Assembly: GCF_026229185.1 (NCBI RefSeq)
Contig: NZ_JAGGJA010000005.1
Span: 186,001 to 250,000, forward strand
From: Fodinibius salsisoli
GTDB taxonomy: Bacteria; Bacteroidota; Rhodothermia; Balneolales; Balneolaceae
Direction: 5' to 3'
Length of the DNA: 64,000 nt
Part shown: piece by piece, positions 9,876 through 20,208 of the stretch
Layout: the number at the start of each line of letters is the position of its first letter
How positions within the stretch are numbered: the stretch's first letter is position 1
Translations under genes and position numbers: made by a program
The notes under the pieces: model-generated
The model's database searches: none
What the model saw: the letters and a program-made list of their open reading frames with translations, nothing else
Told to the model about the DNA's origin: nothing

Positions 9876-10349
9876 TTACTCATTACTACTCATCTGTTCC
9901 ATCGGCATGGCTTCAGAAACGGCCAGGTATGAGGTGCTGTTGTGAACTAAATCCAGGTATTTTTTCATAACGGCCATGGCTTTGTCCATTCCGCCTTCCT
10001 GCTTCGCCATTTCAGCCCACCATTTTTCGTCATCAGGCGTTACCTCCCAGTCCATATCGCTGATGTTATCCATCTTCCAAATAAACATCATGTCCCATTC
10101 TCCGGATTTGAATTGCATCATTTGGGGACCTTCGGTCTCTGATGACATACCGGCTTTCATAAAGTGGTCATGGATAAGACTTTTGGCTTCATCCATACTA
10201 CCGGGTTTGAATTTTACCATTACCACCTGGTGCCAGGTGTGGCCTTCCATTTTCTTCGCTTTGGGAGTTTCCATTTCCTGGGCAAAGCCGGATAGACTGG
10301 ACATTGCCATAAAACATAGGAAAAGCGTCCCTGCAAGTAATTTGTTCAT
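9876..10349 (-). CDS. Secreted small protein, probable dimeric alpha-beta barrel, function unknown
   Basis: The 157-residue protein has a Sec signal peptide (MNKLLAGTLFLCFMAMSSLSGFAQ) and a mature part unusually rich in Met and Trp. The core reads HQVVMVKFKPGSMDEAKSLI, then MMQFKSGEWDMMFIWKM and WWAEMAKQEGG, a beta-alpha-beta pattern with a KFKPG strand end like that in dimeric alpha/beta-barrel (NIPSNAP/stress-response barrel) proteins. I do not recognise a named family with certainty. There are no cofactor motifs. It is a single gene with its own terminator downstream. Likely periplasmic; no function is claimed. Confidence 0.75.
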   Translation of the reverse strand: MNKLLAGTLFLCFMAMSSLSGFAQEMETPKAKKMEGHTWHQVVMVKFKPGSMDEAKSLIHDHFMKAGMSSETEGPQMMQFKSGEWDMMFIWKMDNISDMDWEVTPDDEKWWAEMAKQEGGMDKAMAVMKKYLDLVHNSTSYLAVSEAMPMEQMSSNE

Positions 10350-11614: not shown

Positions 11615-12058
11615 ATGATATTTACCACTCACCGACTTTCTGTTATTATGTTAGCGTTGTTTATTGGTTTTGTTACGAACTGTAATAACAACTCAGGCCC
11701 TGATAATGAAAGTCCACATTATTTTGAGTTTACTCACCAGGGAGAAGAAATCAACTATACTTTTGTAGCTAAGACCTCCAGCCCGGAGGTAATCAGCAAG
11801 GTAGAGGATGAATTATCGAAGCCGATGGATCAACGTAATCTGCATATCCATGGGACGATTGCCCGCGGAAGCAAGGAGTATAACAGTCGTTGGAGTTGGC
11901 ATTTTGTGCCCGGACAGTGGGACCTTGTTGAGGTTTCAGCCGAAGTGTGTGACGGCCGGCCCGGAATGGTAGAAGAAGACCTTGACTATTGGGTGGATCA
12001 AGTCGGTACTTTTTGCCCGTGGTCCTCCGTTGTTTCTGCGGAAGCTAAGGTAGAGTAA
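11615..12058 (+). CDS. BP74-like domain lipoprotein
   Basis: This 147-residue protein has a lipoprotein signal (lipobox FVTNC at about residues 19-23) and a compact domain at about 35-145. Its order of motifs is YFEFTHQGEE, FVAKTSSPEVISKVEDEL, RNLHIHGTIARGSKEYN, WSWHFVPGQW, EVCDGRPGMVEEDLDYW and FCPWSS. This matches what I recall of BP74-type domains, first described in a Dictyostelium calmodulin-binding protein, where HI-GTI, YN-WSFHL, EVCD and CPWSS are conserved. Bacterial copies have no established role. The two cysteines (in EVCD and FCPW) could form a disulfide in the periplasm. It is a single gene convergent with the alpha-glucosidase, only 8 bases away. Confidence 0.7.
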   Translation: MIFTTHRLSVIMLALFIGFVTNCNNNSGPDNESPHYFEFTHQGEEINYTFVAKTSSPEVISKVEDELSKPMDQRNLHIHGTIARGSKEYNSRWSWHFVPGQWDLVEVSAEVCDGRPGMVEEDLDYWVDQVGTFCPWSSVVSAEAKVE

Positions 12059-18687: not shown

Positions 18688-20208
18688 ATGCGGTTATTGT
18701 CATATTCACTAATTAAAAGCTTGGCTTCTTTCGTCGCTCTATTCAGTTTAGTAATGGTTTATACCACAATCAGCTGGGCGCAGCAGCGAACATTACCCGC
18801 CGATACGACGATTGTCTCCACCGATGAAGTGACGGTCAAGGGAACTGAAGTGCCTTACGAAGTGACGGTTGGCACACAGCCGGTGTTTGGGGATGACGGT
18901 AAAACAGATGCTTCATTATTTTATACCTACTACCGACGCACAGATGTAGAGGACGATGATAACCGTCCGATATTTATTTCCTTTAACGGTGGCCCCGGGG
19001 CTGCCTCGCTATGGATGCACTTGGGCTATACCAGTCCCAAGCGCCTGAAGGTAAGTGATGAAGGATACCCCGTACAGCCGTATGGCGTGGAAGACAACCC
19101 GCAGTCGATTATTGACGTAGCCGATATTGTGTACGTGAATCCGGTGAACACAGGCTTCTCTCGTATCCTGAATGATGGCAAGCGGGAGCAGTTTTTTGGT
19201 GTAAATGAGGATATTGATTACCTGGCCGACTGGATTGACACTTTTATCTCTCGGCAAGAACGATGGGAATCGCCCAAATACCTGATTGGCGAAAGTTATG
19301 GTACGCCACGAGTATCAGGCCTCGCCGGCGAACTGCAGAGCCGGCACTGGATGTTTCTGAATGGAGTGGTCCTCGTTTCCCCAACCGGGCTGGGCATGGA
19401 GCCGGCAGGCCCTTCGCCGCGCTCTTCAGTGCTAAAACTGCCTTACTACACCGCAGCAGCATGGTATCACAATCAGTTGCCGCAGGATTTGCAGCAGAGA
19501 GATTTGGATGACCTGCTACCCGAAGTTGAGGAATATACGATTGAGGAATTTTTGCCGGCCCTATCCCGTGGAGGCTTTATCGAAGAGAGCCGTAAACAGG
19601 AAGTGGCCAGCCAGGTAGCACGTTATGCCGGCCTCAACGAATCGTTTGTGCTCGATCATAACCTTGCTGTCCCTGCCATGGCTTTTTGGAAAGAACTGCT
19701 TCGAGAAGAAGGTTATACGATTGGTCGTTTAGACTCCCGCTACAAGGGCATCGATAAGACGGACGCCGGCGACCGCAATGATTATTGGCCCGAATATTCT
19801 TCCTGGAAGCATTCCTTTACGCCGGCTATCAATTATTATTTGCAGGAGAAACTCGGTTTCAAGACCGATTTACAGTATTATGTGGCTGGACCTGTGCATC
19901 CGTGGAATGACGATGGAAACCGAACCGGCGAAATGCTGCGGGGTGCTATGGCTGAGAATCCAAACCTGGAGGTTTTAGTACAGTCAGGTTACTTTGACGG
20001 GGCAACGGATTACTTCTCCGCCAAATATGTGATGTGGAACCTGGATCCCAGTGGTAAAATGCGGGACCGATTGCAGTTTGAAGGCTACCGCAGCGGACAC
20101 ATGATGTACCTGCGAAGCGAAGATCTGGAAACATCCAATGAAGATATCCGGGAGTTTGTGCGAGAAAGTATCCCTGAGGAGGGCGTGCCTGCTCAGTACG
20201 GAAATTAA
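18688..20208 (+). CDS. Secreted S10-family serine carboxypeptidase-like protein
   Basis: The 506-residue protein has a signal peptide (hydrophobic stretch to ISWAQ, about residue 32) and an alpha/beta-hydrolase body of S10 type. It has the oxyanion-hole segment FISFNGGPGAASLWMHLG, the nucleophile Ser203 in LIGESYGTPRVSG, Asp437 in SGYFDGATDYF and His471 in YRSGHMMYL. S10 enzymes remove C-terminal amino acids from peptides, often at acidic pH; bacterial members are common in Bacteroidota and usually periplasmic. The protein probably belongs to the extracytoplasmic peptide-degradation set with the M14 peptidase at 31853. It is monocistronic, with a palindromic site upstream and a strong terminator about 190 bases downstream. 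Confidence 0.92.
   Translation: MRLLSYSLIKSLASFVALFSLVMVYTTISWAQQRTLPADTTIVSTDEVTVKGTEVPYEVTVGTQPVFGDDGKTDASLFYTYYRRTDVEDDDNRPIFISFNGGPGAASLWMHLGYTSPKRLKVSDEGYPVQPYGVEDNPQSIIDVADIVYVNPVNTGFSRILNDGKREQFFGVNEDIDYLADWIDTFISRQERWESPKYLIGESYGTPRVSGLAGELQSRHWMFLNGVVLVSPTGLGMEPAGPSPRSSVLKLPYYTAAAWYHNQLPQDLQQRDLDDLLPEVEEYTIEEFLPALSRGGFIEESRKQEVASQVARYAGLNESFVLDHNLAVPAMAFWKELLREEGYTIGRLDSRYKGIDKTDAGDRNDYWPEYSSWKHSFTPAINYYLQEKLGFKTDLQYYVAGPVHPWNDDGNRTGEMLRGAMAENPNLEVLVQSGYFDGATDYFSAKYVMWNLDPSGKMRDRLQFEGYRSGHMMYLRSEDLETSNEDIREFVRESIPEEGVPAQYGN

Follow-up and report, generated by a model that had tools for sequence, protein, structure and literature searches.

The locus considered here raises the question of what a small BP74_N domain, standing alone behind a putative lipobox, may do outside the cytoplasm of a bacterium. 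The gene lies in a window of 64,000 nucleotides, i.e. the whole stretch of Fodinibius salsisoli DNA that was analysed, and a genome search found it to be the single BP74_N gene copy in its own 4.85-Mb genome. Its features are:

11615..12058, + strand: gene of the probable BP74_N lipoprotein (ATG-started open reading frame of 147 amino acids; Pfam PF23621; single copy)
11615..11683, + strand: putative signal peptide and lipobox ending at C23 (FVTN-C), from the C23 alignment of 28 homologues, the window protein included
11714..12049, + strand: BP74_N domain, residues 34-145 (hmmscan and AlphaFold2 of residues 24-147)
11882..11953, + strand: most conserved stretch, N90...W95 H96...E106...E110 C112 D113 (residue counts in 66 aligned sequences)
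11948..11950, + strand: codon of Cys112, partner of Cys134 (pair pattern in 66 aligned sequences)
12014..12016, + strand: codon of Cys134, partner of Cys112 (pair pattern in 66 aligned sequences)

Domain assignment and predicted structure

The Pfam profile PF23621 (BP74_N) matches residues 34-145 of the 147-residue protein with E 4.5e-32 and 110.7 bits, the curated Pfam cut-off being 27 bits. The match extends over profile positions 2-112 of 114, i.e. nearly end to end, and BP74_N is the sole Pfam family found for the window protein up to E 10. This significant match bears out the BP74-type domain proposed, from the sequence alone, in the preliminary description; the motifs on which that proposal was based are present in the translation in the order given there, i.e. 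LHIHGTI (residues 76-82), YNSRWSWHF (89-97, listed there as YN-WSWHF), EVCD (110-113), and FCPWSS (133-138). The window protein, which carries all of the family-conserved residues (N90, W95, E110, C112, D113, C134, and W136), is thus a further member of a known, catalogued, and uncharacterised family, and is not new in itself. Against NCBIfam, a single row was obtained, at 12.9 bits far below its cut-off of 315, and PHROGs gave no match to the window protein.

The mature domain is confidently predicted to be a small α/β fold. An AlphaFold2 model of residues 24-147, made with 36 sequences, has a mean pLDDT of 90.2 and a pTM of 0.83, the predicted order of elements being β-β-α-β-β-α-α-β; the E106-D113 stretch is less sure, with a block mean pLDDT of 76. 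A second model, of another family member (L071; pLDDT 88.4, pTM 0.83), resembles it in the order of elements, except that the fourth strand is shorter and one helix is missing. Foldseek searches of the PDB with both models, and of BFVD with the first, returned nothing at E 1e-3 or better. By sequence, the single protein gave no row in the PDB, and a profile gave four rows, none better than E 0.96. With VIA-align the best rows for the first model (4bwg_K; Z 3.6, rmsd 3.5, 66 residues) and for the second (Z 2.9) are both too weak for naming a fold; the weak rows include OB-type proteins and topoisomerases. Such rows demonstrate neither kinship nor a new fold.

Conserved residues and the cysteine pair

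Residue conservation was counted in 66 non-redundant sequences, which remained from 72 after removal of three that were too short (L031, L109, L112) and of three near-copies; one sequence below the Pfam cut-off (L113) was retained, as it matches a profile built from the family. E110 is present in 65 of the 66, D113 in 62, and N90 in 60, followed by Cys112 and Cys134 (59 each) and W95, H96, P116, and W136 (58 each); E106 is kept in 47, with Asp at that position in 15. From this pattern of conservation, the stretch from N90 to D113 is likely a functional site.

The two conserved Cys residues of the preliminary description behave as a pair, in that both are present in 59 of the 66 sequences, neither is present in 7, and a single one is present in none. 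Fourteen of these sequences (L073-L086) are from genomes whose first detection relied on two patterns, the Cys being part of one of them; without these sequences, both Cys are present in 45 of 52 and neither in 7. On a tree with few columns and many open forks, the Cys-less sequences need three changes, at least two of which are forced by well-supported branches, so that both Cys apparently changed together on more than one occasion. Joint change of this kind would be expected of residues that form a disulfide or share a metal site.

The preliminary description also suggested a metal site built on the conserved His and acidic residues. H96 is replaced (by R, K, E, S, or T) in 8 of the 66 sequences, whereas E110, D113, and N90 are kept; a His-dependent metal site is therefore not family-wide and, for the family as a whole, this candidate was set aside. 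H96 is lost in 5 of the 7 Cys-less sequences versus 3 of the 59 with Cys (Fisher p 1.2e-4, kinship ignored), and the Cys-less sequences have E110 in 7 of 7 and D113 in 5 of 7 cases. The putative acidic site, conserved together with the paired Cys, is a family-wide property, unlike a His-centred metal site. The small-ligand site suggested as the alternative is compatible with these data, and may be considered putative.

Export, distribution, and gene neighbourhoods

All 28 proteins compared, i.e. the window protein and 27 homologues, with starts picked by hand near the signal peptide, have a Cys at the aligned position of C23. The residue preceding it is Ala in 12, Ser in 9, Gly in 6, and Asn in one, the latter being the window protein. 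Its C23 follows a hydrophobic stretch, as expected of the preliminary description's lipoprotein, yet the Asn is atypical compared with the Ala, Gly, or Ser of the other 27, so that the case for lipidation of the window protein comes from its relatives, and a lipid-anchored location outside the cytoplasm is to be taken as likely only.

Judged by their sequences, most BP74_N members look exported, although the means vary. A hydrophobic segment directly precedes the domain in 57 of 69 aligned sequences; of the remaining 12, 9 are inner or C-terminal domains in longer proteins and 3 are without an export segment, L035, L087, and L093 being stand-alone BP74_N proteins that have no recognisable segment of this type and keep both Cys. 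Among the 35 proteins of a pattern-based genome scan, a simple rule finds a lipobox in 10, and a simple pattern finds a T9SS-like tail motif in 14 (L045-L047, L049-L056, L058, L059, and L062). Of 36 full-length proteins scanned with Pfam, 13 have a Por_Secre_tail, L045, L048, and L049 among them. By eye, we take the end of the L064 protein to be an LPETG-like stretch and the tail of the L070 protein to be dockerin-like; Pfam, run on these two proteins, matched neither.

Many members are single-domain, stand-alone proteins. By Pfam, the domain is in other cases embedded in a long T9SS protein that also has BNR-type repeats and a sorting tail (L048), or is fused C-terminally to RTX repeats (L091) or to GSDH, a glucose/sorbosone dehydrogenase-type protein (L100). 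A GSDH-BP74_N fusion is also observed by similarity in L101 and L103, L102 has a related upstream frame, the frames being separate, and in L069 a GSDH gene adjoins the BP74_N gene; the GSDH link was rejected as a functional clue, there being too few cases.

The BP74_N family is real, sparse, and scattered over bacteria and archaea. The Pfam model matches 14 of 97 genomes in a sample of relatives (own genome included), where 4 of the 11 further members of the genus have a match, and 32 of 394 in a phylum sample, of which 27 are above the Pfam cut-off, the five below it having been set aside. In samples centred on four genomes from other groups, centres included, it matches 7 of 246, 1 of 299 (the centre genome alone), 11 of 199, and 11 of 151 genomes (10 of the last above cut-off); these searches found none in 14 well-known control genomes. 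Archaea are among the BP74_N-bearing genomes. The pattern-based scan gave 35 loci, assigned by their record titles to Fodinibius, Rhodohalobacter, Lutibacter, Saprospiraceae, Kapaibacterium, Marinimicrobia, Eisenbacteria, Desulfobacterales, an alphaproteobacterium, Longimicrobiales, Chloroflexi, Acidobacteria, Phycisphaerae, the actinobacterium Jidongwangia, and Calditenuaceae archaea, among others, which we take to represent about eleven phylum-level groups. Within Fodinibius the tree has two sub-branches, i.e. L001 and L003 versus L002, L007, and L009. A viral or plasmid gene was dismissed as an origin, since viral contigs and phages gave no match and a plasmid search gave only five weak records, at 26 to 31% identity.

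L032-L034, three of the five phylum-sample matches below the Pfam cut-off, were dropped as members, being without a match to the profile built from the family; their proteins, we presume, resemble radical-SAM proteins. In L031 and L109 the BP74_N match is short and is reported to contain one in-frame stop; both are perhaps decayed copies. The stop reported in L011 is where that gene ends. Four archaeal sequences of ~145 codons (L110, L111, L112, and L113) are without the Cys pair, have a WGFRF motif, score 33 bits or less against BP74_N, and perhaps constitute a separate subfamily.

In the window, the BP74_N gene is flanked by two opposite-strand genes, one for a PdaC/DUF3298 protein and a convergent one for a glycoside hydrolase 31, and there is thus no obvious operon. 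A promoter scan found 3 sites versus 1.5 expected, and no terminator. The only window neighbours with matches at other loci are an aminotransferase (L057, L063, and L066) and a permease (L039 and L006), both read as common enzyme kinds. Elsewhere in the window, positions 9876-10349 (- strand) encode a Met-rich protein of 157 amino acids, whose N-terminal part includes a hydrophobic stretch and for which Pfam gave nothing up to E 0.01, and positions 18688-20208 (+ strand) encode a protein of the serine carboxypeptidase S10 family (Pfam E 1.3e-10), a family better known from eukaryotes.

Removal of 7 near-duplicates from the 35 loci left 28, with 107 neighbouring frames, of which 89, at 26 loci, were scanned. 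The other 18 frames comprise two that are very long, one that overlaps one of those two, two that are the target, and doubtful or overlapping ones in L060, L068, L070, and L071; in L060, L065, L070, and L072 an overlapping frame was taken as the target, with one possible neighbour missed in each. No family occurs in more than 3 members among the 89 neighbour proteins, i.e. no shared bacterial operon was found at the 26 loci, and the idea of a conserved operon was rejected.

The only functional hint found comes from the archaea. In 6 of the 8 archaeal loci with the Cys pair (L057, L063, L066, L104, L105, and L106; the exceptions are L107 and the truncated L109) a DUF411 gene is found upstream of BP74_N, separated from it by one small gene that presumably encodes a YCII-like protein. 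Genes further upstream encode a DUF6114 protein (L063) and Met-rich stretches. In L063, the DUF411 protein matches a solved DUF411 protein (6wis, which we take to be the copper protein CopG) with E 4.9e-20. The available text of a study in Pseudomonas links a DUF411 protein to the response to copper stress (PMC6444534). The archaeal block of DUF6114-type, DUF411, YCII-like, and BP74_N genes, with Met-rich proteins nearby, is possibly a copper-handling cluster. When the archaeal DUF411 protein was compared with all 113 loci, with flanks of 1.5-6 kb for most, no match was found beyond this archaeal group.

Possible roles and comparison with known systems

We give an even chance to the proposal that the BP74_N protein is an extracytoplasmic, probably disulfide-locked, ligand-binding module. 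We infer a window protein that would be exported and tethered by lipid on its N-terminal Cys23, its mature part made up of one compact BP74_N domain, about 112 residues long. A disulfide between Cys112 and Cys134 would lock the predicted small α/β fold, and a polar/aromatic patch, putatively grouping N90, W95/H96, E106, E110, D113, and W136 at a single conserved site, would meet an extracellular ligand. One and the same module occurs with varied export and anchoring signals (lipobox, T9SS sorting tail, or N-terminal membrane segment), and in some members it is joined to an enzyme or to repeats, a common trait of binding modules.

Several lines of evidence point in this direction, including that the Pfam match covers nearly the whole mature protein, that a hydrophobic segment before the domain (57/69) and the Por_Secre_tail (13/36) are common, and that the domain is fused to GSDH or RTX repeats or is found in a BNR-repeat T9SS protein. 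The occurrence of the Cys as both or neither in all 66 sequences, the retention of E110 and D113, and the similar order of elements in two confident models of different members are likewise consistent with it. By contrast, no conserved bacterial operon was found at the 26 loci scanned, the residue conservation is strong enough for a catalytic site, the E106-D113 region is less sure in the model, and no solved relative was found by sequence. The disulfide, in particular, fits poorly with the three proteins that are without an export segment yet keep both Cys.

The same three proteins are more readily accommodated by the main rival to a binding module, an unlikely one in our estimation, in which the Cys pair and nearby His/acidic residues would bind a metal, e.g. 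copper, in the envelope, for buffering or delivery. The archaeal DUF411 genes, with their copper-related homologues and Met-rich neighbours, and the more frequent loss of His in Cys-less sequences, argue for such a role; however, among the 113 loci, most with flanks of 1.5-6 kb, the DUF411 match is confined to one archaeal group, and the His is dispensable, with E110 and mostly D113 staying when the Cys are absent.

The retention of E110, D113, and N90, and the many single-domain, stand-alone members, could also be those of a small extracytoplasmic enzyme with catalytic E110/D113, perhaps with H96. This we consider improbable, given the replacement of H96 in 8 of 66 sequences and the appending of the domain to GSDH, itself catalytic, which is commoner for accessory modules; the PDB searches gave no significant match, although this is compatible with an enzyme. 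To the same small degree, it may be that the protein is secreted and inhibits a hydrolase such as a protease, shielding the cell surface. A small acidic domain, possibly disulfide-bonded, with varied export signals and a scattered distribution would suit an inhibitor, but no protease with more than one member is present among the 25 commonest of 126 neighbour families, and no protease fusion was found in the scanned proteins.

Calmodulin is usually bound by basic amphipathic helices, and the acidic first helix of the window protein (PEVISKVEDEL), in a mature protein with 22 Asp and Glu versus 9 Lys and Arg, thus argues against calmodulin binding, a role for which the family name is the sole support and which, being very improbable indeed, was set aside. 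The calmodulin meaning of the name, and its origin in Dictyostelium, come from the preliminary description and were not confirmed, no paper on the domain being among the matches listed in literature searches on BP74, PF23621, CmbB, and bacterial calmodulin-binding proteins. In the available text of two Dictyostelium reviews (PMC7079120, PMC7072818) the term BP74 does not appear, the former describing CmbB as a protein of FNIP repeats, and the available text on CmbC contains no domain information.

The survey describes a sparse, mostly extracytoplasmic family across bacteria and archaea, with paired Cys and a near-invariant E110 (65/66), and one archaeal gene cluster links it to a copper-type DUF411 protein. 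With so small a domain and the survey in hand, the function of an uncharacterised Pfam family becomes testable. A broader and rather doubtful proposal is that BP74_N is an old, widely scattered extracytoplasmic module, common to bacteria and archaea and with a fold absent from the PDB, the Cys pair and acidic patch of which would bind a small ligand or a metal (copper for the archaeal cluster), and the name of which hides its role.

With respect to known systems, OB-fold proteins, e.g. Rim1 and SSB (6cqo and 3lgj, which we take to have the OB fold), give weak partial structural alignments with the window model, at Z values far under the tool's meaningful level and without a sequence match. The PF23621 profile, to which Pfam assigns no function, spans the whole mature window protein; however, the family name implies the N-terminal part of a larger protein, whereas the window protein has a putative lipobox and then this domain as its only one. 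BP74_N proteins of the T9SS type, from Bacteroidota and elsewhere, have the domain with both Cys, as does the window protein, but have a C-terminal sorting tail and, by the simple rule, no lipobox. Likewise, the archaeal proteins from the DUF411 loci (Thermoproteota, two of them Calditenuaceae) share the domain, both Cys, E110, and D113 with the window protein, but differ in having an N-terminal hydrophobic segment without a lipobox and a DUF411 neighbourhood, which is absent around the window gene.
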